Of a stretch of DNA of 64,000 nucleotides, positions 21,832 through 64,000 are shown piece by piece (position 1 is the stretch's first letter; every line of letters starts with the position of its first letter). Made by a program: the position numbers and the translations under genes. The notes beneath the pieces are model-generated. The model did not search any database. It saw only the letters and a list, made by a program, of their open reading frames with translations, and was not told the origin of the DNA. Source of the DNA: Odiellus spinosus (taxonomy: Eukaryota; Arthropoda; Arachnida; Opiliones; Phalangiidae); assembly GCA_963920705.1 (NCBI GenBank), contig OY987233.1, forward strand, positions 2,160,001-2,224,000, in the 5' to 3' direction.

Positions 21832-22632
21832 CCTAGGAAGATGAATGAGAGGAACGGCCACCTCATGTTATAACTTGCGTCGTTTCAAAGTCAGCTTCTG
21901 CTTTCAATTCCCCCCTTTGTTTCCCCCCTTTGCTGATACGTATTTTCTAATGCCCATCCTTTTACGCGCACGCTACGTGTAACACTCGTGACTCCTTGCT
22001 AGAGAAGGAGCGAGCTATGGATTTTCTCAGCAGGGGTGCCAATTTACAATAAGGTTTCGATTCCACCACAGTTTGCACCGCGTAAATATTTACCTTATCC
22101 GTTATCCTTACGAATAGTTTATTTATTGGGATATTGAGCGCCTCGCTTTACGCGCGCTGATCATCACGTTTGGTGACCATTCGCCTGCAGCTGGTTCACT
22201 ATCTGTGGTTCACCTTAATTTGGCAGCGCGTATAAACCTACTCTTTCCTTTATTTCTAAGAATTGTTTACTTAGAAATGTAAGGAGGGTTATTGAAAGAG
22301 GGTCCCCAACTTCATGTTGTACGAAATTTGACACCCGCGAATAAAAGGATGACCTTGTACCCTTACAATCCGTGAGAGAGCGGACTAAAACACTCCCCAA
22401 GCCCACTCTTCCAGGGAAATCCGAAATTATTCAGGTGCAGCTAAGGCGCCTAGGATATAGCCTGCTGTAATTTGATGCTAGATGATGTAGGTATGTCACG
22501 TGAGTGCGCACCAAAAAAGCGCAGTTAGCTTCTTTCAACACAGAAGCGAGAGAGGAAAACTACGTCATCTTCAGACTTTCACGGACGGGTTGTGCTATAC
22601 TAGTGGCCGTTCCTCTCATTCATCTTCCTAGG
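21832..22632. mobile_element. Nested 0.8-kb inverted-repeat element
   Basis: The ends CCTAGGAAGATGAATGAGAG and their inverse give TIRs of about 30 bp (to GGAACGGCCAC). It interrupts the left arm of the larger palindrome. TTTCA (21827-21831 and 22633-22637) is duplicated; because CCTAGG also follows on the right, an 11-bp duplication TTTCACCTAGG fits equally well. No coding capacity is evident. Confidence 0.75.
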
Positions 22633-22963
22633 TTTCACCTAGGCATGCAACCATGGGTCGGCAGATCTTAATGAAATTTGGTACACTTGTTTCTATACTT
22701 AAAAAACTAGGATTCTCAGATTTTAAGATGAAAATAAAAATAATTGAATTTTTGGCGAAATTTAGAGTAAACCCCCAAGATTTTTAGAACGTCAGCGAAA
22801 AAAAATTATGCTCTTGCGAAAATACCAATATCTTTCTGGCGCCTCGGTTGATTCTTTGGAATTTACTCGTGTTTATAGAGTAAAATTAAGGCAAGGAATC
22901 CGATGGTCATCTCCAAAATGGTCTACCTCTTTTAGTTTTTTTGTTTTTAATTTTTTTAAATTT

Positions 22964-23597
22964 CCGAAGCGACGGAGTTGTTGTATTTAATCATAAAGAT
23001 ATTGTGTCAAGTTGCCAAGAATTAAATATCGGAGGCGCAAATAGTTTATGCTTGAACCTAAAACTGAAAAAAAAAACTTTAGAAGTTAATCTGTATCTAT
23101 AGATCCCCAAATTGAGATTTTGATATCTTTGTGAACGGTTTGAACCAGCTATTAACTGACTTTGAGAAACAAAATATTCACAATTGTATATTAATTGGAG
23201 ATATTCATATTGATATTCTGTCGGATTCGTCACTAAATGTTTCACCTGAATATCTAGACATCCTCTCTTTCTACATGGCTACTCTAAGTTTATTAATAAC
23301 TTTACTAGAATTAAACCCAACTCCAAGTCGTGCATTGACCATTGCTTTGCTAAGATTGACTTCCGCCCTGACCAAATTCAATCCACTATATTACAAACCA
23401 CAATCACGGATCACTATTTGATAATTTTAGAAATCGATACGCAATCAAACAAAGAAAAACAACTCGTATACTAAACGAGATCCGAATATTGACTATGAAA
23501 AACAAAATTTTTTGTTAAGCTCTGAGAATTGGTCTGCACTATATAAAGGTAAATATGTGAATATGTGGCTAAATATTTTCCTTGATCTGCTTATGTA
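22964..23597 (+). pseudogene. Non-LTR retrotransposon endonuclease fragment, copy 1
   Basis: The + strand encodes the apurinic-like endonuclease domain of a Jockey/CR1-like element: GVVVFNHKDIV, FVNGLNQLLTDFEKQ, ILIGDIHIDIL (the GDxN-type strand), EYLDILS. After a one-base shift it reads NNFTRIKPNSKSCIDHCFAK and TTITDHYLI (SxxDH and TDHY motifs). It is cut at 23597 by a MITE. Copy 2 at 27688 starts at exactly the same element base (CCGAAGCGACGGAG) and shares the same frameshift. Confidence 0.8.
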
Positions 23598-23940
23598 CAG
23601 GGTGTTTCGAAAATGGTGATAGGATCGAGCTCCATAGGGTTCTATGGGCCTTTTTAAGACGAAAATGTTCTGTGCCGTTTAAGAGTTACGTAATGATTCA
23701 TGTGCGGATGACCCATATACTCAATGCTAAAATCAATTTTTATCAAGCGCGTGCTTTAAAACGTATTTTATCATTGAGTATACGTTTATTAATGTACGTT
23801 AAGAGGACATCCGCACATGAATCATTTCGTAACTCTTAAACGGCGCCCCGTACGACAAAACGTCATAGAACATTTTCGTCTTAAAATGGCCCATAGAACC
23901 CAATGGAGCTCGATCCTATCACCATTTTCGAAACACCCTG
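23598..23940. mobile_element. MITE, 343 bp, CAGGGTGTTTCGAAAATGG ends
   Basis: Near-perfect terminal inverted repeats of roughly 110-120 bp (CAGGGTGTTTCGAAAATGGT and inverse at 23940), with a central spacer of about 80 bp. The flanks read ATGTA and TACAT, so the duplication may be TA. No ORF; the transposase family is not assigned. Confidence 0.85.
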
Positions 23941-24453
23941 TACATAATATAAATATAAAAATCCCAAAAATTTGAAACTTTTGTTTTTAATTACCAATTA
24001 GATACGAAACAAATACCATGAACCAAACATATACTAGGTGAAAGATGCGACCTCGGGGTCTTAAAAAAAGTGAAAATAAAATTTTTAAAAGTTGGCCCTC
24101 ATGACGTCACCGTGTAGGACCCCCTGCGAAATTTAAAAAAATTAAAAACAAAGAAACTAAAAGAGGTACACCATGTTGGAGATGACCATCGGATTCCTTG
24201 CCTTTTACTCTATAAACACGATTAAATTCCAAAGAATCAACCGAGGCGCCAGAAAGATATTGGTATTTTCGCAAGAGCATAATTTTTTTTCGCTGACGTT
24301 CTAAAAATCTTGGGGGTTTACTCTAAATTTCGCCTAAAATCCAATTATTCTTATTTTCATCTTAAAATCTGGGAATCCTAGTTTTTTAAGCATAGAAACA
24401 AGTGAACCAAATTTCATGGTTGCATGCCTAGGTGAAACCATATGGAATGACCC

Positions 24454-25489
24454 AGCTTCGTTTATAAAATGAAATAACTATTAATTCGTTTTCGACTCCT
24501 TTAAAAGAGCTTGAACTACAAGCCCTTTCCCAGCACTTCTCAGTATTAAAAATGATAATTTTTTATTAAATACAATTTAAGTTATATTAGTCTGATTAAA
24601 ACAGATAAGATCTGCCCGCCCTTTTCCGCGGTTTTTTGGATAGTTCGTCAATACCCCCTTCTATATTTGTCTTTAACATCATTAAAAAGTGGTTTTTCAA
24701 AACTTCAGTTTGGGTTACCGATCTGTATTCTTAAATTGCACTATCAGTAATTATTTTTAATTACGCATCACAAAACCGTGGCCTATCCATTTATAAAATG
24801 GATTAAATAGTATGCCAATTACAGCGTATTTATTATTTTTAAAACTCAATTTCAATCTAGCCCGGTTTTGCTTCCACACGTAGGCCAAGCCGAGACGCGG
24901 CGAAACCGCTCTAATTTCTTTCCACACGTAAATTGAAAGAGAGGCCGCCGAAACCGGGTTGAGACTACCTCTTTTCGATGGTCTCGGTCCGGTATCGGCC
25001 CGCGCTACTTTTTAACGTGTGAACACTATTATCCCGGGTCCGACCCGCTCCGACCACGCGCTAAGGCACCGTGTAGAACAGACTTAATACTAAAATATTC
25101 GTCTTCCGACCGCGAGTCTGTTTCACTGAGAGTTTGCAATGGGCTTTACTAAATAGGGTACGCTATGTCTCTCTCTAAGAAACGCATAGATAAGAGATAG
25201 AGGTTTTTTAGCTTTTTACGCACTACAATTATAAGTTTGAACAATGGTGTAGAATATGTCTTAACAAGAAAGAGGCAAAAATATTACATTTAGGAAGCCT
25301 GCAGTGGTATGAATTAAGTTGAACAAAAATCTACACTGTTTAATTACATAGAATTAATAGAGCAAAGGCATGGCATAAAACGATATTTAAAATATATAAA
25401 ACGGTGCCTAGCATTCTACGAATAGTTATTAATGCAAGACTAAATTTTTACGTTTATACTTGAATTGGATAATATTTTATTATTCAAAA
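24454..25489. other. No gene; GC-rich inverted block at 24855-25075
   Basis: Otherwise AT-rich. The segment 24855-24960 has CTAGCCCGGTTTTGC on the left and CGAAACCGGGTTGAG on the right with CTTTCCACACGT twice between, a small hairpin of the short-motif type. No coding frame. Confidence 0.5.
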
Positions 25490-26254
25490 ACTCTTTGCTT
25501 CGCACTTCAAAAAAGGTGAATATATAGGCAAGAAATTCAAACCCGTGATGGGACAGACAATTACTATTGACAGAAATAGGAAAGTCTCAGGTAAATAGGG
25601 GGTTCACCGTAACCGGTGCCCTTTTACTGCAACCTATTGGATGTTTATTTCACTCTATCCTATTCTTTGCGTAGGTTTTTGCGCCTCACACGCTATTTTC
25701 AATAATTCAGCCAAAGGCAGGGGTTATTATACAGGGTTTTTTGTAGGTTTAAGACTCTTGAACACCACTTTTCATAGTACAGCCAAAGTCAGGGATTTTT
25801 ATATAGGGCTGTTGTGTAGGTATAGAAGCCTCATATGTAATTTTTAATAGTTCATACAGATGCAGGGAGCAGAGATACGTGGGTCAATGACAGCGTAGGT
25901 TCAGGTCCCCCAACGCCATTTTAATAATACAGCCAAAGGCAGAGGTTTTTGTGTAGGTTTAAGACTCTAATACCGAATTTTTCATATTACAGCTAAAAAC
26001 GGATTTTTATATAGGTATAGGACTCTCATACGCCAATTTTAATAGTACAGTCAAAGGCCGGAGTTTTTATATAGAGTTCCTCTGTGCAGGTGTAGGACCC
26101 TCATATGCCATTTTAAGTTTGTACATTAAGTTACTTTCCTACCCGTCTATTTCATCTTCATGCATTTTTTATATGCTTATTAAGAGACATTATTTTGAAA
26201 ATTTCACCATTTTATTTAACATTTTTATCAATTTTACAATGAGAATAATTAAAT

Positions 26255-26760
26255 TAATCAACTTCTATGGCGTTTTCCTTGATCTTGCAATTTTCATGAG
26301 CTAATTCCATCCGGTACTATATACTACTTATCATCAGCAGCCGTCATTCCACACTTCTTTTATCGGATGGTATATAAATCATGTTGATAAATCTGAATCT
26401 TAATCATTTCTACTATCTTGACCTCCTTCTTGAAAAGGCAGTTGCAATAGGTTTCTTTACCAGACTTTTACTAACTCCTTTGGCTCCGCTTTGTATCCTC
26501 TTCATTCAGTTTGATGTATACAATTTAGGTAACGAGCTCGGAAATACGCTCACCTAAAGCCTCATACTTCATCTTTCGAAACTTCTTATTAGACTTACTA
26601 TGGAGGAAGTGAGTCTCGGGCATATCGAAAGTTGCATATATTTTTATAAACATCATTTGTCTCAATTCGATAGGTCAGTGTCCGTCAGTAATAGAGTAGC
26701 TTGATCGCCATATTGCATTATGATGTGGTTGTAGTGAAAATCTTAACGAACTTGCTCAAC
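26255..26760 (-). pseudogene. pPolB C-terminal fragment, left arm
   Basis: On the - strand, DFHYNHIIMQYGDQATLLLT with LTDTD at 26688-26674 matches the polymerase motif C of the right-hand pPolB (YGDKAKLLFTDTD). Further on, degraded sequence corresponds to the C-terminus (DGISS near 26320). Stops and indels throughout. Confidence 0.65.
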
Positions 26761-26879
26761 TCAAGAATGCAGAACCCGAAAATTCTTGAAAGAAAATTAT
26801 AATAGGATTATAATAGGGATGGCGGCCACTTCCTTATATAATTTTTTTTTTTTTTGAGTTTAAATTAAGCTACGCTTCT

Positions 26880-27600
26880 GATGTGTCTGTACCGAATGCG
26901 CCTTTTACGTCAACAAATTTATTCCAAAAGCTCCTTTGTTTGTAATAGTATAATCCATATCAACGAAAACCACATTTCACCAATTGTCAGTTTTGAAAGT
27001 TCTTGTTTTTATCTTCTTATAAAGCCACTTTCAGCTTTCTGAACTCAACGTTTACCAAGTTGAAATCTACCATTTCATTGTATTTCTTTGAAAGTTCTTC
27101 AAATGGATTTTCATTTACGCTTGGTTTACCAAAATGTGCCACAGTTGGGTCTAAAATGTCAGTTCACTAAGAAAACCATTCTGAAGTGGTAATCGATTTT
27201 GTCTTTCTATGGCACCTTGGACATAAAGCTTTAGGCATGCGTTAATCTCATCTGCTGCTTCCTTAGGCATAGTTTTAACCTAATTCTCACATTCTGGTCC
27301 AAGATAGATTTCCTTGAGATAATTGAAAGGATGTCTTACGTTCATTACATCTATATTTTTTTGGGGACTCCTCATTTATGAAATTTTGGTAAACTTCTTT
27401 ATAAAGCTTTTTGGAGATTTCAACCAACTTATGAATAAGAATTTTTCTTGACAGAAACAGTGCACTGAATGAGCTGAAAACATTAAGGACATATTTAAGA
27501 AATAGTAAGTAGCACTTGTTAAATATATTCCTTAGTTCTGACAGTATATTCTCAGCAGATTTGAACTTACTATCAACGACTGCTATTTAGGCTTAAAACA
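26880..27600 (-). pseudogene. hAT-type transposase relic
   Basis: The - strand frames contain KILIHKLVEISKKLYKEVYQ, KTMPKEAADEINACLKLYVQ, GAIERQNRLPLQNGFLSELT and LDPTVAHFG in the order seen in ZNF862/hAT-like proteins (helical region before the dimerisation domain). Several stops and frame changes. Identification is by pattern recall only. Confidence 0.45.
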
Positions 27601-27687
27601 TAGTCCTAGCATCAGAAAGCTATTATCCAATTTATATTACTTTAAAATAAATGGGTATATGAACTATTATACCTCAAAATACTCGAA

Positions 27688-28620
27688 CCGAAGCGACGGA
27701 GTGGTTGTATTTAATCATAAAGATATTGTGTCAAGTTGCCAAGAATTAAATATCGGAGGCGCAAATAGTTTATGCTTGAACCTAAAACTGAATAAAAAAC
27801 TTTAGAAGTTAATCTGTATCTATAGATCCCCAAATTGCGATTTTGATATCTTTGTGAACGGTTTGAACCAGCTATTAACTGACTTTGAGAAACAAAATAT
27901 TCACAATTGTATATTAATTGGAGATATTCATATTGATATTCTGTCGGATTCGTCACTAAATGGTTCACCTGAATATCTAGACATCCTCTCTTTCTACATG
28001 GCTACTCTAAGTTTATTAATAACTTTACTAGAATTAAACCCAACTCCAAGTCGTGCATTGACCATTGCTTTGCTAAGATTGACTTCCGCCCTGACCAAAT
28101 TCAATCCACTATATTACAAACCACAATCACGGATCACTATTTGATAATTTTAGAAATCGATACGCAATCAAACAAAGAAAAAACAAATCATATACTAAAC
28201 GAGATCCGAATATTGACTGTGAAAAACAAAATTTTTTGTTAAGCTCTGAGAATTGGTCTGCACTATATAAAGGTAAATATGTGGCTAAATATTTTCCTTG
28301 ATCTGCTAAATAAATATATTAATTTAAGTATTATTAAAACAAATACCAAAATTCCATAAGAAAGGCCCCAAAAAAATTTAAACCATGGATGACAAAAGGA
28401 CTAAGTATATCTATTAACAAACGTGACAAACTACACCAGAAATTGTTAAAAGAACCATTTAACGATAGACTTATACATTTATATAAAAGATATAGAAACA
28501 AATTGAATGCTTTAAATAAAACTATTAAATGTAACTATTATCAAGATCAAATTACCACAGTAAAAAACGACCCTAAAAAATATAGAGTATAATCAATCGT
28601 GCAATATCAATATCTAAACA
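27688..28620 (+). pseudogene. Non-LTR retrotransposon endonuclease-linker fragment, copy 2
   Basis: Same start, sequence and frameshift as copy 1 but not interrupted by the MITE. It continues further, into the region between endonuclease and RT (KPWMTKGLSISINKRDKLHQ, LYKRYRNKLNALNKTIK). It stops before RT. No poly-A or 3' end is present. Confidence 0.8.
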
Positions 28621-28654
28621 AAGCCAATCCATAACGAAAATTATTAATAATAAT

Positions 28655-29043
28655 GAAGATTGAGACGAATGATGTTTATAAAGATATGCAACTTCACTCT
28701 CATCTCTTTGACGCCTCCGATATGCCCGAATAGGTGAGCCTAAGACATAAACTCTATTCATTCAAATTGAATGGAAAGGTTACGAAGCGAGCCAAAGGAG
28801 ATAGTAAAAGTGTGGTAAACGCATTTTTAACTATGAAACCTATCGCATCTGCCTTTTGAAGAAGGAGGTCAAGAGAGTAAAAATGATTAAGATTCAGATT
28901 TATCAACATGATTTATACACCATCCGACAGAATAAGCATGGGATGACGGCTGCTGATAATAAGTAGAATATACTACTGGATGGAGTGACGACGTTAGCTC
29001 ATGGACATTACAAGATCAAGGAAAACGCCATGGAAGTTGATTA
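28655..29043 (+). pseudogene. pPolB C-terminal fragment, right arm
   Basis: + strand pieces DMQLHSHLFDASDMPE, YSFKLNGKVTKRAKG, CLLKKEVKRVKMIKIQ and LLDGVTTLAHGHYKIKENAM. They match the end of the intact right-hand gene (compare MYSILSTAGSKKTAKG, RRVTVASMKRIVSKK, LDDGISTLAHGHYKIK). At least two frameshifts and a stop. Confidence 0.75.
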
Positions 29044-29633
29044 ATTTAATGATTATCATTGTAAAATTGATAAAAATGGTGAAATTATCAAAATAAAATC
29101 TCCTATTTAATAAGCATATAAACAATGCATGAAGATGAGTTAGTTTGTACTAAATGTACAAACTTAAAATAGAGTATAGTTCTACACCTACACAAGAACT
29201 TTATATAAAAACTCCGGCCTTCGACTGTACTATTAAAAATGGCGTATGAGAGTCCTATACCTAAGTGAAAATCCCCGCCTTTAGCTGTAGTATGAAAATC
29301 TGCGTATTAGAGTCCTAAACCTACACAAATACCCTGTATAATAACCCCTGCCTTAGGCTGTATAATTAAAAATGGCGTATGGGGGACCTAAACCTAGGTA
29401 ACAAAAAAGGATGGAGTGAAATATCCATCCAATATGTGGCCACAATTGACCCTGGTATCTCTGCTCCCTGCCTATGTAAGTATAAAAGGGCACCGGTGAC
29501 GGTGAACCCCCTATTACCTACTACTTTTCTGCAACTAGAACTTTCTAATTTCTTAGTCTGTCAACAGTAATTTTAATTTCTGTACCATCACGGATTTGAA
29601 TTTCTTGCCTATATATGCACTTTTTTGAAGTGC

Positions 29634-49180: not shown

Positions 49181-50170
49181 ATTATAAAAAAAAACAGTTG
49201 GGCGGATGCCCATCTAGAATGGAAGGCTATCAGTGACAGATATTACAATTCAGAATGGACAGATATAATTTTTTATTACTTCCCAGAATGGACAGATATA
49301 ATTTTTTATTGCAACTCAGAATGGGCAAATATAATTTATTACAACTCGGAATGGACAGATATTATTTATTATAACTCGGAATGGGCAGATATAATTTATT
49401 ACAACTGAAATGGACAAATTTCCCTTTTAAATAACTGCAATTAAGCCAAACCTCTCGCGGATAACTCTGCCCTTTATACGAAACATTTTCATTGAAAAAT
49501 CAAACATTTGACGTTAAAAATGTGTAGTAAAATAATTTCTATTTATTTCATAAATGTTAATTTTATATTAATAATTAAGAAAATAACGTACACTAAATAT
49601 AAATGCTATAGGCGCAATAAATAGGTTACAAATGTTATATAATATTTCATAGTTCCTTTCGAATTGCAGTGTTTCTCATTGAAAAATAAATCATTTGACG
49701 CAATAATGTGTAGTTAAAATAATTTAAATATTTATATCACCATTGTTAATTTATTATTTATAATTAAGAAAATAACGTATACTAAATATAAATACTACAG
49801 GCACAATAAATAAGTTACACTGTTTATATTCCAACAAATATTGCATACCTCCCTTCCAATTCCACAGTTTCGTATAAAGGGCAGAGTTATCCGCGAGAGG
49901 TTTGGCTTAATTGCAGTTATTTAAAAGGGAAATTTGTCCATTTCAGTTGTAATAAATTATATCTGCCCATTCCGAGTTATAATAAATAATATCTGTCCAT
50001 TCCGAGTTGTAATAAATTATATTTGCCCATTCTGAGTTGCAATAAAAAATTATATCTGTCCATTCTGGGAAGTAATAAAAAATTATATCTGTCCATTCTG
50101 AATTGTAATATCTGTCACTGATAGCCTTCCATTCTAGATGGGCATCCGCCCAACTGGTTTTTTTTATAAT
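49181..50170. mobile_element. Foldback element, 304-bp arms with 30-bp subrepeats
   Basis: 49181-49484 is the inverse of 49867-50170 with very few differences. Each arm has AACAGTTGGGCGGATGCCC, five units of about 30-33 bp (GAATGGACAGATATAATTTT), then CCAAACCTCTCGCGGATAAC. The 382-bp centre is itself two imperfect direct copies of about 190 bp (ATTTGACG, AATAACGTA(C/T)ACTAAATAT). No ORF beyond those made by the subrepeats. No clear target duplication found. Confidence 0.9.
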
Positions 50171-51653: not shown

Positions 51654-53090
51654 ATTATATCAAAAATGTCTTTGCGAACAAAGACCCAGAAGGACATGTT
51701 ATGGCCTTGAATGTCTGAAGTGACAGATATTTAATTTTCTTTTAAAACATTAAATTTAAATACAATTAAATTTTCTTTTAAAACATGAAATTTAAATACA
51801 ATTAGATTTTCTTTTAAAACAAAATTTAAATATAATCACAATCTGGCACGATTTAGAGTTTCAAATTTCAATACAACTGATTTTATTCACTCGGAAATAT
51901 TTAAGAAAAACATAACAGACGATTTTCTCCCATTGACGCTTAACATTAAATTTCGCTTAATTATTTTTCAGGGAAAACGTGTATTGAACTGTTATTTTTC
52001 AGTATAACGCGAGTCCACTTTATGTTTTCTTAGTTTAACCCGAATTTCCACGACTCGCGATTGAACGGATCGTTAAAAATACTCGCCGGTTTATTGGAAT
52101 GGGTATATGATAAAGGGAAATGTGTTTTTTAAAGCCCGTTTAAAGTCACCTTCTTTTCTAGCTTAGCAGACGACGCAAACCATAACAATTTGTACTTTCA
52201 AAGCTATATTGCGCGCGCAAGCGGAGAGAATTTCAAAGCGACGAATTTTAGAGCGGATAAGCTTTTTAAATAAATTGTAATACTTTCATTTTTCTTTTCA
52301 TTAAAACCGTACAATTAAAATGATGATTTCCATAAGGGACCACTATTTAGTTATTAGGAGTTATAAAAAAAACATCCATGAATTAGGTTTGTTCGTTTGC
52401 AACCCAAGTTAAAAATTAAAATATGGTGAATTTTTATTCCCTTTAAATTCCTTGTATAAGCATCCGTAAGCTAACATGAACGAATTGCCTCGACTAAAGT
52501 CGAGGAGTTGTAATAAAACATTATCCATGGATTAGGTATGTTCGTTTGCAACCTAGATTAAAAATTAAAATAAGGGGAATTTTTTTCCCTTTAAATTCCT
52601 TGATAAGCATTCATAAGCTAACATGAACGAGAACGAATTGCCTCGACTAAAGTCGAAGAGTTATAATAAAGCATTATCCATAGAAAACATTATCCATAGA
52701 AAACATTATCCAATTAAGGTATGAGATCAGATCATAGAACTTTGAGTCTATGCCTAAAGCCAAAGCTAAATTAAGTATATTTTTCTATCGAAATTTAATG
52801 TTAAGCGTCAATGGGAGAAAATCGTCTGTTATGTTTTTCTTAAATATTTCCGAGTGAATAAAATCAGTTGTATTGAAATTTGAAACTCTAAATCGTGCCA
52901 GATTGTGATTATATTTAAATTTCGTTTTAAAAGAAAATCTAATTGTATTTAAATTTCATGTTTTAAAAGAAAATTTAATTGTATTTAAATTTAATGTTTT
53001 AAAAGAAAATTAAATATCTGTCACTTCAGACATTCAAGGCCATAACATGTCCTTCTGGGTCTTTGTTCGCAAAGACATTTTTGATATAAT
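51654..53090. mobile_element. Foldback element, 302-bp arms
   Basis: 51654-51955 is the inverse of 52789-53090. Arms hold ATTATATCAAAAATGTCTTT, TCTGAAGTGACAGATATT, three units of TTTTCTTTTAAAACAT..AAATTTAAATACAATT, and GAGAAAATCGTCTG. The centre (51956-52788) has a 150-bp direct duplication (52381-52680) with CCTCGACTAAAGTCGAGG. No ORF. It lies inside satellite element copy B. Confidence 0.88.
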
Positions 53091-55990: not shown

Positions 55991-56448
55991 AAGAATTACA
56001 CCAAGTTGGGAAACAACGTCATATGACGACAAACTAACTAAAATATTTTTCAAAATATTTAAGGCCTGGTTCATCGCGCGAAGTTTGTACAACTTAAAGC
56101 AAGTTCGCAAATCGAACAAGTACTCTAGTGAACTAATTGCAGACCGGAAGTGTGTGGCGGCTTATTGAACTTGCCTACCTTAATTACCGTATAGCCTATC
56201 CTAGTAGTAGGAATGGGGCTGCTATTGAGTAGTTGTCCATTTATTAAAGTCTGGGTCTATACTCTATAGCACATCCTAGTCGCGGGACTCAAATACATTT
56301 ATAAATTATACAAAAATGTTGTTTTGCTTCGCACTTCAAAAAAGTGCATTTATAGGTAAGAATTTCAAACCCGTGAAGGGACAGAAATTATAAATTCACA
56401 GTGAAAGAAATATGAAAGTCACAGTCTAAGAAATCATAAAGCTATAAT

Positions 56449-56986
56449 TATAATAATTAATATGAATAAAAAATTTACAAAAAAATGACGTATAAATTCG
56501 GCCTATCGAAACTTTTACTTATGTAGATTTAATGATTAGAAACTTTATAAAGAGGCGAATGTTTCCTTTTACTAACTGAAAACTGCAACCATCGCCATTC
56601 GATATCACCACTCTAGAGTCTAGGAGAAGGGAAAAGTAAGAGTCAACTAAACTTTAGTAGCTGTCAGATGACGATAACACGCGAGTAAAGGTTTGTTAGT
56701 GTATTCCCCGTGGTGTTTAAAAATCAAAAGTCTCATCTAAACAGCAACCCCTCTTAAGATAATATAATTCTCCACCCTAACAACTAAACATTTTAAAAAC
56801 GCGGGCAGGAACTATTTGGTATTATGCTATTCTACCTTTCCACGCATAGATGGCTTTTAGTTACCCTTACCAAGAGTGAATTCTACAACAGAATGATTTC
56901 TGCATAATTAAAAGTTTCGATAGGCCGAATTTATACGTCATTTTTTTGTAAATTGTTTATTCATATTAATTATTATAAGTAGGGTA
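56449..56986. mobile_element. MITE inserted in the left outer arm
   Basis: Arms of about 69 bp (AATTAATATGAATAAA, ATGACGTATAAATTCGGCCT, ATCGAAACTTTTA) at 56449-56517 and inverted at 56918-56986. The uninterrupted arm at 63455-63485 shows the insertion point. A single arm also occurs at 30541-30590. Confidence 0.8.
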
Positions 56987-56999
56987 TAAAGGGGGAAAC

Positions 57000-57420
57000 C
57001 AGGACAGCCTGCCGCTATTCATTTAACATAGCGGCAGCCTGCCGCTATTCATTTAACATAGCGGCAGCCTGCCGCTATTCTTTAACATAGCGGCACCCTG
57101 CCGCTATACTTTAACATAGCGGCACCCTGCCGCTATACTTTAACATAGCGGCACCAGCCGTCTCTATATCCAGGACAGCCCGCTGCCATTCATTTAACAT
57201 GGCGGCACCAGCCGTCTCTATATCCAGGACAGCCCGCTGCCATTCATTTAACATGGCGGCAACCTGCTGCTATACTTTTACATAGCGGAAGCCTGCCGCA
57301 GCAGCGGCAGGCTCTATATCCAGGACAGCCCGCTGCCATTCATTTAACATGACGGAAACCTGTTGCTATACTTTTACATAGCGGCAGCCTACCGCAGCAG
57401 CTTCCTATCTTCTGTGTGTA
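57000..57420. repeat. Inner arm subrepeats, left
   Basis: About a dozen AGCGGCA.CCTGCCGCTAT.C.TTTAACAT units of 28-30 bp, later joined into a unit of about 85-110 bp with TCTATATCCAGGACAGCCCG. Inverse of 63338-63455 but expanded. Confidence 0.9.
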
Positions 57421-57536
57421 TTGAACATCTAGTTTCTTAAGATTATTACGTAATCATCACGTGACTTTTGGTAGTTTTACTTTATACGTCATATCCTTCA
57501 AGGAAATCGGAAACTACTTTTTCATTCTCTATGATT

Positions 57537-57712
57537 TTTTTTTTTTTTTTTTTTTTACATAGGATTCTTCAAAATATGGTGCTCCAAAAGACACGTAACA
57601 CTTCAGCTTATTATATAAATTTACGAATCAGCGGGCTTTAGGAATCGAACCCGAACCCTCATACATGCGAGCATTGTACGCTAACCAATTAGCCATGTTT
57701 TCCTATACTGAT
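57537..57712 (-). mobile_element. tRNA-derived SINE with poly-A tail
   Basis: On the - strand the tRNA-like head has A-box TGGCTAATTGG and B-box GGTTCGATTCC (about 57700-57640) and a body of about 80 nt. A run of about 20 A (T on +, 57537-57556) forms the tail. The head differs from the one at 32-33 kb. Imperfect cloverleaf, so not a tRNA gene. It sits between the inner arm and the polymerase gene. Confidence 0.65.
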
Positions 57713-58258
57713 TTCGCTTAAAATGCTGCCTCTATTCCCTTATCACATTAGTAAGACCCATCTCACTCTCACACTTTACGGTTAATACAAAGAAAGGTTG
57801 GGATAGCCTCTTATCTCTTTGCTTATGCTCACAGACAAGGGTGAATATGTGTCTTTCACTCTTATCTATACTTAAGCTTGACGCCACTGAAATAGCCCAG
57901 AATACCCCTTTATCTCCTTGCTCTTACTATCGAGTGTCGAATGTAAATATACACTATCATTCGAATGAAAAAAAAAAAATTTTAATTTTTAAGCGCCAAA
58001 TCAGTTCAAGTTTATAATTTTTAATATTTCCCAACATTGCCTTATCAGTGAAGAATAAGTGTACCCTGCATTTGATGCTAAAGAAGCGTTTTATCAATAA
58101 TTCGATAAAAGTCAACATGTCAATTATCAATCAATTTTTAAAGAGAATTTCAATAATATTTGGTTTTATATAGTTTATCTCATATTTATTATCTTAGAAG
58201 CATCATATTCGTACACAATTTCAGTTGGAATGTTAATTATTTATAACAGTTGTATAAT
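57713..58258. other. Spacer downstream of the polymerase gene
   Basis: AT-rich, A-run at 57968-57979. No gene. The gene's polyadenylation signal should lie here; none stands out strongly. Confidence 0.45.
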
Positions 58259-61200
58259 TTATTTAATTTTATAATGTCCGTGAGCGAGAGTGGATATACC
58301 ATCATCCAGTACGTATCGTTTATCGTCGCACGGGTTTAAACATAATTTACTTTGTTGTACTGTTGTCAGCTCGTGCTTTTTGCTCACAATTCGCTTCATC
58401 GATGCCACTGTAACCCGTCTGTTGAGCAGACAGTCCCGATAATGTTCGTGGAGTATGGTTTTCTTCACCACTCGCTTACAAACACCCTTCGCGGTCTTTT
58501 TTGAACCCGCAGTCGAGAGGATCGAGTACATCTTAGGACGTAACCCACAGAACTCCTTAATAGGAATACCGTTTAGTTCGTCCTTGAATTTTCCGAGAAC
58601 TTTTTTGTTCTCGTCGCTGAAGAGCGGATGTTCAATAGGGTAGCCAGAGAAGTCGTAATGCTCGGCTTGTTTTGCAAAGTCGGCGTAGAGGTCATCTGTT
58701 TCAATGGAGTATGTAAGGCTGTCTGTAAAGAAAAATGAAAATACATAAAATATATATATATGTTATATCGAGTAAATAATATAATTACCAGTATCCGTAA
58801 AGAGAAGTTTGGCCTTATCTCCATATTGGGCTCTTATAACACCATAATGAAAGTTGTACATCAATAACTTCGATAAATCAAGTATGGTAAAACCCGTAAA
58901 TATTGGACGGTTGAGGATGATTTTCTTTTTCTTCATGTGAATCCCTAATAGATCGTTTTGAAAAATTGTCAATTTTTCGAACGCCGGTGAATTCACCTTC
59001 TTTATCACTTTCCTAGGTGTTTGTGCTAAATGGAATTCAATCCGATTCCGTAGATTTTCCATTGTTTTACCTACGTGGAAAAATAATAAGATAAACATTC
59101 AAATTGCCGCGTGTGTATACTGCGCACTCACCGAAAACTGCATTATTCATTAGTTTAAAAAAATCTTTCTCGAAATCATTCGTGGCTAATTTGCGCTTTT
59201 CTGTATTGAAGTTTATGTAGTCGGCGAGCCAAGCTCCCTGCTCGAAGGACACAACACGATGAAGCTTCCCTACCACAAGACCTTCTTCCACATAATATTT
59301 TAAGTTCCGATAATGAACTACGTATTTTGTTTTTGGGTTAAGATCCGGTACAAGCTTGGGTAGAGAGTCTTTTAACGGGATTTTCAGATGTTTTAACTGC
59401 TCCTTGGAGAATTCCGAAAATTCGTCGCTGTTGATGATGCGTTTTTCAGGTGCTAGTGGTAGATCATTATGCTTAGCGTGGAGTTCTGCGGGATAGATAA
59501 GGTCCACTTCGACGATAAAGCCAACTTTATCATCATCCGGATGATGGAGAATATCCTCGATAGAGATAGCATCATCCCATTTGAAGTTTTTCATCGGCAT
59601 GAGATCTCTCATGACTGTTCCGTATAGGTTGTTACAATCTACGAGATGGGAAATCGACCTTTAAACTCTGAATATACGAATACGAAGCTCTTAAAATAGG
59701 AGAAATCTACCTAAATATGTGATGAAACTATTAGATTTCGCCACGTCGTATGTTTCGGGAATAAGATTATTATTGGCGGTCGCGAGACGGTGGCTAATCA
59801 TAGATACACCACCACGAATACCTCGTTCTATCATCAGGTGCATATCAGGATCCAAAAGTAGGTCCAATTCCGCCTTTGTCATATGTAGGGCACTTTCCCA
59901 AGCGAAACCAGGCCCCGTATAAGCGTGAGCGCTGTCCAACTTATAATAACTCATACAAATTGTCCGGAATGACTCGAAAACATCGGCAAGTTGAAGGGTG
60001 TATACGTATAGATCATGATAATCGCTTATAAGAAAAGAGATTAGTATATAAAAGATTTTAACAAGAAAAATAATCTTACCCATATTTCGGATATTAAAGG
60101 TGTTCCAGACATTCTGAGCGTGTTCATAGTCAGAATCACTGATGTGCGAGTCTGTAAGAATATTGAAGAACGCCTCCTTAGGAGGTAGTTTCTTCTCCTC
60201 AAATTTTTCTTCATTGTCCATATAATCGTACGGATATAGCCCTTTGCGTAAGAGTACCGCGACTTCGTTAGGGGAGTAGATAGATTTTAAAATCGGAAAT
60301 TTATCCGATCCTTCTTTGGCTAAGTTTCCAACGAGGGTTTCGAGTGAGGCGGGTAAAAATCTAAGTGAATCTACGAATCTTAGCCGACCTAACGAAAACG
60401 ATACGAATTTTTCACTATTTGAAGGAATACATCCTATATCTTTATCCTTGATTAATCCGATTCGCTGCATAATTAGATGCGAGTCATATCCAGACAAATT
60501 GTGAAAAAATACAGGAACATGCTTTGGTGCGTGTAATTGGAGATTGCAGGTGTTGTGTGCAGCTCCCCGATACACACCCGAGTAATGATCATGATCCCGC
60601 ACTTTATAATCCCTCAAGGTGAAAGCACTACCACAGAGATAGCAAATGTCAGCCTGTAACCACGAGCTCGTCTCTAACTCCGTTAGTTCCATCGGTATAT
60701 TTTCTTTGATTTTCTTCAAGATGTCATCCGACTCATATAATAAGCTTTTGAGAAATACTGAAGTCGCATCCTCACCTCTGTATGTGACCGGTTTCGCGTT
60801 TGTACCTATAAAATTAAATCTTAACTAAAGACCGAGGGGGCGAATGAGAAATATTTAGCTTACCGTCAGGACCTACAACGACGTAGGAAAACCCACATGA
60901 TTTGTGTAAAGCCAAAGTTGTTGTTGAAGATAATGAAGAATCGAGCATACATGTTTTAACCTTTGGCATTATAGCCTCAAAGTCCGCATATATTACGTAT
61001 GGTACTCTCTGGCGCCAGGCGAACTTTTTGAACTTACAAATTGGATCATCGATTGGCATCGAAGTAAGCTGAGGTCCATGAACACTGCACTCTTTAACAT
61101 GCTGTATATGATTACGTTTCGCGTTTTCGCCGGAAAATCTATGTAGACAGTAGCGACAATACCACATTGCGCATTTATGATTAGAAAAATCACCACTCAA

Positions 61201-62349
61201 AAGTCGACTCAGATTCTTGATTAGACAAAAATGTTTCTTTTCTCCTCGACTTATTAGGAGAAGATCTATTTGGCGTTCTTCATCAACTCGGTTTTGGCTC
61301 ACGTAAATAGGAAAAATGACCTCATCATACGCGAAAATGTTCACGGAAATGTCATTTATCTCTTCAAATTTAGAAAGTTTTTTCGAATCATGCTGGTATG
61401 GAAATGTTATTCCACAAGGGTTAAGTTCGTCCACAAATGCGAGGTAACTAGTGACGCGTTCGGGGTGATGTAAGGGCGGGTGTAATTTGGCTAAAATAGC
61501 GTACATGAAGCAGCGATCGTCAGAGTTTTTAATATTAATTATGGCCCCTTTGTTTGCTAATTTCCCTGGAAGTTCAATATATGAACCTCCAAGGAGCGGG
61601 TTGTACGTTATAATGTCTAGTTGTACGAATAAAATTCGATCTAACACCCATCCACTTCCTGTAGCTTCAAACTCAGACATTGATTGTTCGATTTTGCCGA
61701 TGTTAGAGTCAATCTGATCGTGGATAACGTCCGGAGTTAACGTAGCGCTAGTAAAACCACGAAAATATGGGAGAGCTTCGCAAATCGATCCTTCATTGGC
61801 TAGGGGGCGGGTGTAACGTGCGCGAATGATAATATACCACTTAATACCTTTCTTTGATTGGAGGCGATTTTTAATATATTCACAAATAACCTGTCTATGT
61901 CTACCGATAAATTCCAAGGGGTCAGTTTCTATTGGTGTAGGGGTTAACCTAGCAGCGAACACAACATCACCAATCGCTTCGACTTCCGCCCACTCATCGG
62001 GGGGACTAGCTATATTTTCAGCTTCAGTTGAAGTTTGGGGTATAAGAGCACGTTTCAGAGGCTGCGATTCATTGTACGAAGACGAACTCTGCCGTTTTCT
62101 CGGGTTAGGTGGCGAGTTATCTATGTTAGATGGGGGTGTTCCCGTTGTTGCGGGTACGTTAAGGGTGTGATCGCGGCTGTTATCATTGTCGTGTTGTTTA
62201 GTCAGATGCTTATTTAAATTTGTTTTCCGAGTAAATGATGCTCCGCAGACTGAACAGCTAAACTTTACTCTATCATGAAACGAGCGGCTATGTTGTACCA
62301 AATCTCTCCGTGTGGTGTACGTAGCGGCGCATTTATCACATTGAAACAT
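58259..62349 (-). CDS. Protein-primed DNA polymerase B with N-terminal C2H2 fingers, six exons
   Basis: Exons: 62349-60864, 60805-60080, 60024-59711, 59638-59132, 59070-58789, 58722-58259, about 1,260 codons. The ATG at 62349 starts two C2H2 fingers (residues 4-25 and 32-53). Then GSGWVLDRILF and IINIKNSDDRCFMYAI (a region typical of Polinton pPolB), a Cys/His cluster (398-421), Exo I YADFEAI (D456, E458), a CYLCG...HDHYSG.YRGAAHNTCNL cluster like endonuclease VII/HNH, and Exo II FHNLSGYD. Polymerase motif A is YLD|CNNLYG, B is KLMNNAVFG|KTMEN, C is LLFTDT|DS, each restored across an intron. GT-AG introns are 58, 55, 72, 61 and 66 nt. Only the 55-nt intron, before DYHDLYVYT, fails phase by one base; if retained, the whole frame is open (1,277 codons). 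Role: replication of the element from terminal-protein-primed ends, by family knowledge. Confidence 0.88.
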
Positions 62350-62714
62350 AACGAATTAAAAGGGTGGAGAAGCTGGAACACACAAAAATTTACCATCAAA
62401 CCCCATACCGGAGAAAATAAAAATTATCAGATGTGAAGAAATTACTTACCGAGCGATGGTGAATTGGAAGGATATGACACATAAAATATCCACGATCGGG
62501 AGAATAAAATCGAGATGACTTCACTCTTCAAAGATCAGACATACAATAAATTTAAATGTGGACCGTCGCTAGACATACATCGAGATAACCAGGACTATAT
62601 GCTAAAATGAATTTACGAGCCAATACTTAAAGCAATCCGAATTTAAATACTAGATCGTTTATTGAAAAACATCAGTCTTATCTTATCGATGTTGATAATT
62701 TCAAATACTACAAT
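62350..62714. other. Upstream region of the polymerase gene
   Basis: 365 bp of AT-rich sequence between the start codon and the 217-bp repeats. Presumably the 5' UTR/promoter; no TATA box position can be fixed with confidence. Confidence 0.4.
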
Positions 62715-63330
62715 AACGGGGAAAACCCTATTTCGTCATTGTAAGTATGGAAAAACCCAATTCATGGTGTCTATATAACTAAACTTAAACCAAAGAGATG
62801 GTTTTTCCGAGTAAATATTACGAAAACGGTATGATTGAACTTGTGATAAAACCCGAGTCGACATTGCACAATGGAACTAGAACCTAAGGGTCGCTATATT
62901 AGGATAAACACATTAAAAAAAACCTACGACAAGAGATATCTCTTATCTATAAACAAGATAAAAAGGGAAACCCCGCAAATAAAGGGGAAAACCCCAATTC
63001 ACTAAACTGAAACCAAAGAGGTGGTTTTCCCAAGTAAGTATCAAATATTAGGATAAAAAGAGAGGAGAAATTCACAGATAAGTTCATTTCTCGACGCTTT
63101 GCAGCCATTATCTTAATCGTAGATAAACACTTGAATAAACCTCCGATAAGAGATATCTCTTATCTATAAACAAGATAAAAAGGGGAATCCCGCAAATAAA
63201 GGGGAAAACCCCAATTCACTAAACTTAAACCAAAGAGGTGGTTTTTCCAAGTAAGTATAAATTATTAGAATAAAAAGAGAGGAGAAATTTACAGATAAGT
63301 TCATTTCTCGACGCTTTGCAGACTGTCTTA
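62715..63330. repeat. 217-220 bp tandem repeat upstream of the polymerase gene
   Basis: Three units. Landmarks CTAAACTTAAACCAAAGAG at 62779, about 62999 and 63216, and AAGAGATATCTCTT at 62931 and 63148 (217 bp). Each contains GGGGAAAACCC and the palindrome AAGAGATATCTCTT. Placed between the inner arm and the gene start, so it may be a promoter or replication control region; that is inference. Confidence 0.85.
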
Positions 63331-63337
63331 TCCTGGA

Positions 63338-63762
63338 TATAGAGACGGCTGGTGCCGCTATGTTAAAGTATAGCGGCAGGGTGCCGCTATGTTAAAGTAT
63401 AGCGGCAGGCTGCCGCTATGTTAAATGAATAGCGGCAGGCTGTCCTGGTTTCCCCCTTTATACCCTACTATTATAATTATAGCTTTATGATTTCTTAGAC
63501 TGACTTTCATATTTCTTTCACTGTGAATTTATAATTTCTGCCCCTTCACGGGTTTGAAATTCTTACCTTTAAATGCACTTTTTTGAAGTGCGAAGCAAAA
63601 CAACGTTTTTGTATAATAATTATAGATTTATGATTTCTTAGACTGTGACTTTCATATTTCTTTCACTGTGAATTTATAATTTCTGTCCCTTCACGGGTTT
63701 GAAATTCTTACCTATAAATGCACTTTTTTGAAGCGCGAAGCAAAACAACGTTTTTGTATAAT
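63338..63762. repeat. Right inner and duplicated outer arms
   Basis: 63338-63455 has four inverted AGCGGCA units (GGTGCCGCTATGTTAAAGTA...). 63470-63618 and 63619-63762 are two tandem outer-arm copies that differ at a few bases (GAAGTGCGAAGC versus GAAGCGCGAAGC). Confidence 0.88.
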
Positions 63763-64000
63763 TTGTGTTTGCTTTTGGAAAAATTAAACACTTGTAAATC
63801 AATTAACCCATTTTTTTTTATTTAGTGGTAGGAATTAAAATTGCAAATTTACAAGTTTAAATTGAAATGATTTAATATATATGATTATTTTATATTGTAC
63901 AAACTTTATAATCGGTTATTGTTGTTCTAAATTATGGGGCCCTATAACTGTGGTTTAAGATTAAATATCCTATGGTGCACGCGACATCTTTTTTAATCTC
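63763..64000. other. No gene recognised
   Basis: AT-rich flank outside the foldback element. Confidence 0.45.

Follow-up and report, generated by a model that had tools for sequence, protein, structure and literature searches.

To our knowledge, the protein-primed linear replication of animal Mavericks (also called Polintons) has been inferred from their gene content. Adenovirus is known to have snapback defective genomes. Those of adeno-associated virus (AAV) keep one end and the adjacent sequence as an inverted duplicate, as described in an excerpt of PMC8235507. According to the excerpted text of PMC8097293, vertebrate Mavericks most often end in (AGT)2 or (AG)3, and intact ones are flanked by 6-bp duplications; the POLB of insect Mavericks has a weak EndoVII match already in print (E 0.02 and 0.32; PMC5803895, excerpt). 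Around inserts of fungal invertrons, host sequence can form long inverted repeats, perhaps through panhandle intermediates (PMC1864894, excerpt). Here we analyze E1, an element carrying a gene for a protein-primed DNA polymerase (pPolB), which lies in a 64,000-nucleotide stretch of the Odiellus spinosus genome (contig OY987233.1, positions 2,160,001 to 2,224,000; hereafter the window). The best-preserved relatives of this gene in the same genome are giant palindromes with one pPolB gene per arm, a feature beyond what the window alone could show. With a probability of roughly 0.7, we interpret the E1 group as snapback derivatives of Mavericks that retain no more than the terminal origin and the pPolB gene next to it and that were inserted by an integrase acting in trans.

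Many pPolB genes occur as inverted pairs

A search of exon 2 of the E1 polymerase gene against its own genome returned 153 matches (109 of 402 candidates scored), and the 69 best were used to judge pairing. Thirty-eight of these 69 form 19 inverted pairs, each spanning no more than 12 kb, of which 17 are divergent and 2 convergent; a single pair lies on the same strand. Pairing involves 26 of 29 matches in the group at 45-48% identity, 8 of 14 in the E1-like group and 4 of 26 in the group at 56-74%. In the five divergent pairs for which more than 4 kb was compared, the arms are 99.6-100% identical. Over 4.1 kb, the two gene halves are 100% identical in copy C14, 99.6% in C8, 99.8% in C169 and 99.7% in C13; of the convergent pairs, C12 reaches 100% and C192 is lower, at 95%.

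The most fully sampled palindrome, C5, lies at C5:9443277-9455004 and is 11.7 kb long. Its outer 2,505 bp are mirrored at all 2,505 positions, its 4.9-kb centre is 99.6% self-complementary, and its pPolB frames have 1,212 residues. All 27 of 27 candidates for the 121-bp end of the C5 family were scored; 14 match it over the full length, and these all fall into seven inverted pairs. Six of these are spaced about 11.7 kb apart and the seventh, C17, 16.3 kb; in C17 one polymerase frame is cut to 797 residues, and a foreign frame of 1,009 residues, retrotransposon-like by eye, lies beside it. Another of the seven, C274, has one exon-2 match among the matches listed. The other 13 matches of the end search are 48-bp matches at 85% to a second family, found on both sides at C11, C4, C1, C72 and C137 and as three singles.

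Ends and target duplications

Exact 6-bp duplications flank 10 of the 12 loci at which both ends were examined. All seven palindromes of the families at 46-48% identity end in AGTAGTAGG and have perfect 6-bp duplications, each different from the others (GATACT, AACTGT, TTCCTT, AGGTTA, ATGGGT, CAGGAG and TTTGGC). Within the E1 family the duplications are CAGATT at C8, AGGGTT at C13 and ATTATA at E1, and the ends of E1, C8, C13 and C14 read AGTAGGG, one base off (AGT)2. C169 has lost the left copy of its duplication and has flanks in common with C8.

These data bear on a rival account, in which internal deletion stripped an ordinary Maverick down to E1 and the pairing of genes is a coincidence of duplication or nested insertion. 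A Maverick origin of this kind would agree with the AGT-type ends and the 6-bp duplications, and also with the rve-type open reading frame (ORF) beside related pPolB genes described below. However, the mirrored end is the same at seven loci of one family, six of which have nearly the same total length; five of the seven had their flanks examined, and each of the five has a 6-bp duplication of its own; and divergent pairs are found again in families that share only 45-48% identity with E1. We regard this account as unlikely.

Gene content and polymerase relatives

Within the sampled parts of C5, the ORFs of at least 100 amino acids are pPolB, one 100-amino-acid antisense frame per arm and two flank frames reaching shortly into the ends. 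The centre of C14 contains no ORF of at least 100 amino acids. The integrase ORF beside pPolB in L008, a contig from outside this genome, served as query; with 134 of 606 candidates scored, it gave 134 matches in the O. spinosus genome, and many of them lie in 319-residue open frames. The single match tested hit rve at 6.2e-11, and a 170-residue ORF adjoining it has a weak match (E 0.032) to proteases of the Ulp1 type, the broad kind to which Maverick proteases belong. None of the 134 matches listed lies within 20 kb of the 19 pPolB pairs, as judged by comparing the lists by eye. Additionally, this integrase, the protease-like ORF and a neighbouring ORF, used as queries, had no match in 17 fetched pieces of palindromes; copies carrying an integrase, which the preliminary description had suggested looking for, were not found there.

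Outside this genome, the exon-2 family comprises 1,254 matches at E 1e-3 or better, and named sources among the 120 listed include molluscs, spiders and a coral. A motif pattern further identified seven contigs from prokaryote bins, six of which encode the polymerase. On four of these six, an rve-type ORF adjoins pPolB, above the Pfam cut-off in L008 and L010 and below it in L004 (E 1.9e-5) and L005 (E 0.0023); of the remaining two, one has a BRO-N gene and one has neither. The tree does not resolve the placement of E1 among the six. Because this polymerase type is common to integrase-bearing elements, it fits an origin from Mavericks or adintoviruses.

An EndoVII-like nuclease (59691-60824) is inserted between Exo I and Exo II of the E1 polymerase, and 30 of 32 aligned members of the exon-2 family match EndoVII at E 0.01 or better. 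This nuclease could in principle belong to a distinct lineage with its own insertion machinery, in which it would cut target and hairpin DNA and make a DDE integrase unnecessary. The motif is not specific to elements lacking an integrase, since it is also present in the pPolB genes next to the rve-type ORF of L004, L005, L008 and L010, and a weak match to it is noted for insect Maverick POLB in the excerpted text of PMC5803895. Moreover, insertion by a DDE integrase leaves exact 6-bp duplications of this kind. Insertion by the EndoVII-like nuclease therefore seems improbable to us.

The E1 locus and neighbouring repeats

The features of the window are listed in Table 1. In the preliminary description, outer and inner inverted arms were nested around the pPolB gene as one foldback element. 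The gene, with Exo I, Exo II and motifs A, B and C all placed in exon ORFs (58259-62346), and both pairs of arms are confirmed, yet not as a single element: the outer pair, at 56303-56455 and 63612-63764, is part of a separate, common foldback repeat, M. The preliminary description had itself named outer arms of an unrelated, merely flanking element as a refutation, and this result refutes the nested layout, not the idea of a Polinton derivative.

Table 1. Coordinates of annotated features in the window.
Feature	Coordinates	Strand	Description and basis
E2	25589..29525		Decayed two-gene relative; right inner end AGTAGTAGGTAATAGGGGG; left end decayed
M, left part	56303..56977		Recipient of the E1 insertion; 99.7% and 98% to L020, which is without 56594-56770
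Target duplication, left copy	56972..56977		6-bp ATTATA; comparison with L020
E1 proper	56978..63469		6,492 bp; AGTAGGGTATAAAGGGGG at 56978, mirror image closing at 63469; based on mirrored ends and on flanks against uninterrupted M copy L020
E1 left end	56978..57401		GC-rich hairpin-forming subrepeats (units about 29-30, 54 and 96 bp)
pPolB exon 5 ORF	58259..58762	-	End of motif C and C-terminus; aligns with relatives
pPolB exon 4 ORF	58763..59098	-	End of motif B, start of motif C; aligns with relatives
pPolB exon 3 ORF	59067..59660	-	Motif A and start of motif B; aligns with relatives; DNA_pol_B_2 match at E 2.7e-4, below Pfam cut-off
pPolB exon 2 ORF	59691..60824	-	EndoVII-like insert, Exo II, Exo III without its Asp; contains an in-frame intron (read by eye)
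pPolB exon 1	60814..62346	-	Two C2H2 fingers, OTU-like domain, Exo I; Pfam, OTU folds
E1 right terminal inverted repeat	63331..63469		Subrepeats; shorter than left end
Target duplication, right copy	63470..63475		ATTATA; comparison with L020
M, right part	63470..64000		Right arm doubled; start of the one-sided tail of M, leaving the window

The left outer arm gave 45 matches in its own genome (40 of 1,137 candidates scored). Thirty loci (L012-L041) were compared, comprising 18 distinct two-armed copies, 8 that repeat flanks already listed and 4 with a single usable arm, the window included. The two-armed units measure 634-928 bp. One of the copies, L020 (638 bp), is continuous where the window is interrupted and matches 56303-56593, 56771-56981 and 63612-64000; thus, the outer arms and what had been taken for an adjoining miniature inverted-repeat transposable element are one repeat. 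Doubled arms occur in some M copies. In all 18 distinct two-armed copies the same sequence, from 34 bp to over 1.4 kb long, follows on one side only, with different sequence opposite, indicating that M itself is the end of something larger. The arms of M were not found in the fetched flanks of other E1-family copies (C8, C169, C13, C149 and C14).

Comparison with L020 also defines the ends of E1 and its target duplication, as the preliminary description had sought. ATTATA occurs twice in tandem at the insertion point in uninterrupted M and three times in the M of the window (one copy left of E1 and two right of it). The copy gained indicates a 6-bp target duplication. The best inverted match of the left end to the right end reaches up to 57175, and both ends fold strongly (z -9.7 for 57000-57140 and z -7.5 for 63350-63450). 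From the 5' side of the gene, E1 tracks one half of C14 to about 63332 and then jumps to its short right end, at the point where the upstream region of C14 runs on to the palindrome centre. Such a jump is expected if most of a second arm was deleted, and E1 is probably a deleted, one-gene copy.

Separately, 57431-57870 of E1 is absent from the C14 copy and is repeated in the left flank of C14 (L072:1-432, 97% to 57459-57882); it looks like a separate insertion in E1.

We also considered whether the outer arms, E1, E2 and the foldbacks F1 and F2 form a single superfamily that ends in ATTATA and makes no target duplication. This grouping was rejected when the search of the genome identified the outer arms as repeat M; the end features of F1 and F2 are common with M and not with the pPolB element. 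Two young non-coding foldbacks (49181-50170 and 51654-53090; arms 99.7%, subrepeats of 30 and 36 bp) begin with ATTATA and have GTGACAGATATT near their ends, as M does. Apart from the TATA built into their ends, they have no symmetric target duplication of at least 3 bp.

E2 is enclosed by an M-like repeat (25479-29633) and contains inverted pPolB remnants at 26297-26742 (-) and 28659-29020 (+). A 629-bp fragment, by eye similar to a long interspersed nuclear element, occurs twice at 97% (22964-23591 and 27688-28307), once inside E2 and once inside an unrelated inverted-repeat element (22631-24439).

A proposed snapback origin for the E1 group

We propose that the parent of the E1 group replicates in linear form by protein priming. 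One of its strands, displaced or nascent, may then fold back and be copied into a snapback molecule whose two ends would both be the pPolB-bearing end. With two origins and its own polymerase, such a molecule could keep replicating. A Maverick-type integrase supplied from elsewhere in the genome, presumably by another Maverick, would recognise the AGT ends and insert the molecule, leaving 6-bp duplications. E1 would be a palindrome lacking most of its second arm, having landed in M before or after that loss. A minimal Polinton derivative with its own polymerase and a borrowed integrase had been suggested from the window alone. The AGT-type ends, the 6-bp duplications, pPolB as the sole gene found and the lack of listed integrase matches near the pairs all agree with that suggestion; the lender of the integrase was not found.

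Several observations weigh against this interpretation. Thirty-one of the 69 best pPolB matches lack a partner, and two convergent pairs (C12:8009210/8014271 and C192:9022/12191) have their mirror point on the other side of the gene and are not explained by a single snapback of one end. The Exo III aspartate is missing from the E1 polymerase, the AGTAGGG ends of E1 are not perfect (AGT)2, and the ends of C7 match at only 98.1% over 162 bp. The absence of integrase near the pairs refers to the 134 of 606 candidates that were scored. At six integrase loci examined with 1.5-kb flanks, the motif AGTAGTA is absent and nothing resembles the palindrome ends. For ATPase, protease and capsid genes, the sampled C5 element has no ORF of at least 100 amino acids besides pPolB and the antisense frame, although ATPase and capsid were not searched by profile. 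All of the evidence comes from genomic DNA. Because of their common flanks, C8 and C169 are not independent. Finally, C14 has no direct duplication; instead its element ends are flanked by a perfect inverted repeat of 968 bp (L072:431-1398 and L074), which was either left by a panhandle-type insertion or produced by misassembly.

The last two points would also suit the possibility that the palindromes in general are sequencing or assembly artefacts (hairpin reads or false joins), since a flank mirrored beyond the element with no duplication is what a false join gives. Against this stand nine palindromes with different, non-mirrored flanks and exact 6-bp duplications, the 16 mismatches that separate the arms of C8, and C17, in which only one polymerase frame is shortened and has the foreign frame beside it. 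We consider an artefact very unlikely.

Beyond a snapback origin, we tentatively raise the possibility of a lasting lineage of palindromic Maverick satellites, which would encode only a polymerase, replicate as linear snapback molecules and hijack the integrase, perhaps also the capsids, of helper Mavericks. In that case, several polymerase families, with identities to E1 of about 45-48%, 61-63% and over 89%, would have persisted as mirror pairs owing to the replication advantage of carrying two origins and two copies of the polymerase gene. Palindromes around the polymerase-bearing end are the expected trace of fold-back copying, making the protein-primed mode of replication directly testable. 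They also illustrate how a virus-like transposon could remain mobile after losing every gene except its polymerase, a possible route to polymerase-only satellites and foldback elements.

Comparison with known systems

The titles and abstract openings listed in the literature searches yielded no description of palindromic Mavericks with only pPolB; Repbase and subscription papers lay outside this search. Like Mavericks, the elements have pPolB, AGT-type ends and 6-bp target duplications (PMC8097293, excerpt), and a weak EndoVII match is noted for insect Maverick POLB (PMC5803895, excerpt). As differences from Mavericks, neither integrase nor protease was matched in the palindromes and no gene besides pPolB was found, the inverted repeat spans the entire element and each arm carries pPolB, and the pPolB gene of E1 has introns. 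The OTU-like fold in exon 1 of E1 resembles that of adintoviruses. In those viruses a hexon and an rve integrase accompany OTU-PolB, whereas the palindromes have no integrase match and sampled C5 has no further ORF that is a hexon candidate.

Long arms with internal tandem repeats are also found in Foldback, Tetris and Galileo elements. Excerpts of PMC4079207 and PMC3573991 describe Tetris with 8-10-bp duplications and no conserved ORF, and Galileo with a P-type transposase and 7-bp duplications. Foldbacks of the Mutator-like element (MULE) type have 8-10-bp duplications and a MULE transposase; here the duplications are 6 bp and no ORF of that size is present besides pPolB.

The fungal mitochondrial invertron plasmids pAL2-1 and kalilo are minimal protein-primed replicons, as proposed here for the palindromes, and the mirrored flank of C14 resembles the inverted host repeats around invertron inserts. 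Unlike the palindromes, these invertrons are mitochondrial and also encode an RNA polymerase, and their junctions are variable and often truncated, with no fixed-length duplication described in the excerpted text (PMC1864894 throughout). As in AAV snapback genomes (PMC8235507, excerpt), one end and its adjoining stretch are duplicated in inverted orientation. The palindromes differ from the snapback genomes of AAV and adenovirus in that they are fixed in the host genome, occur at numerous loci and carry an intact polymerase gene in both arms.

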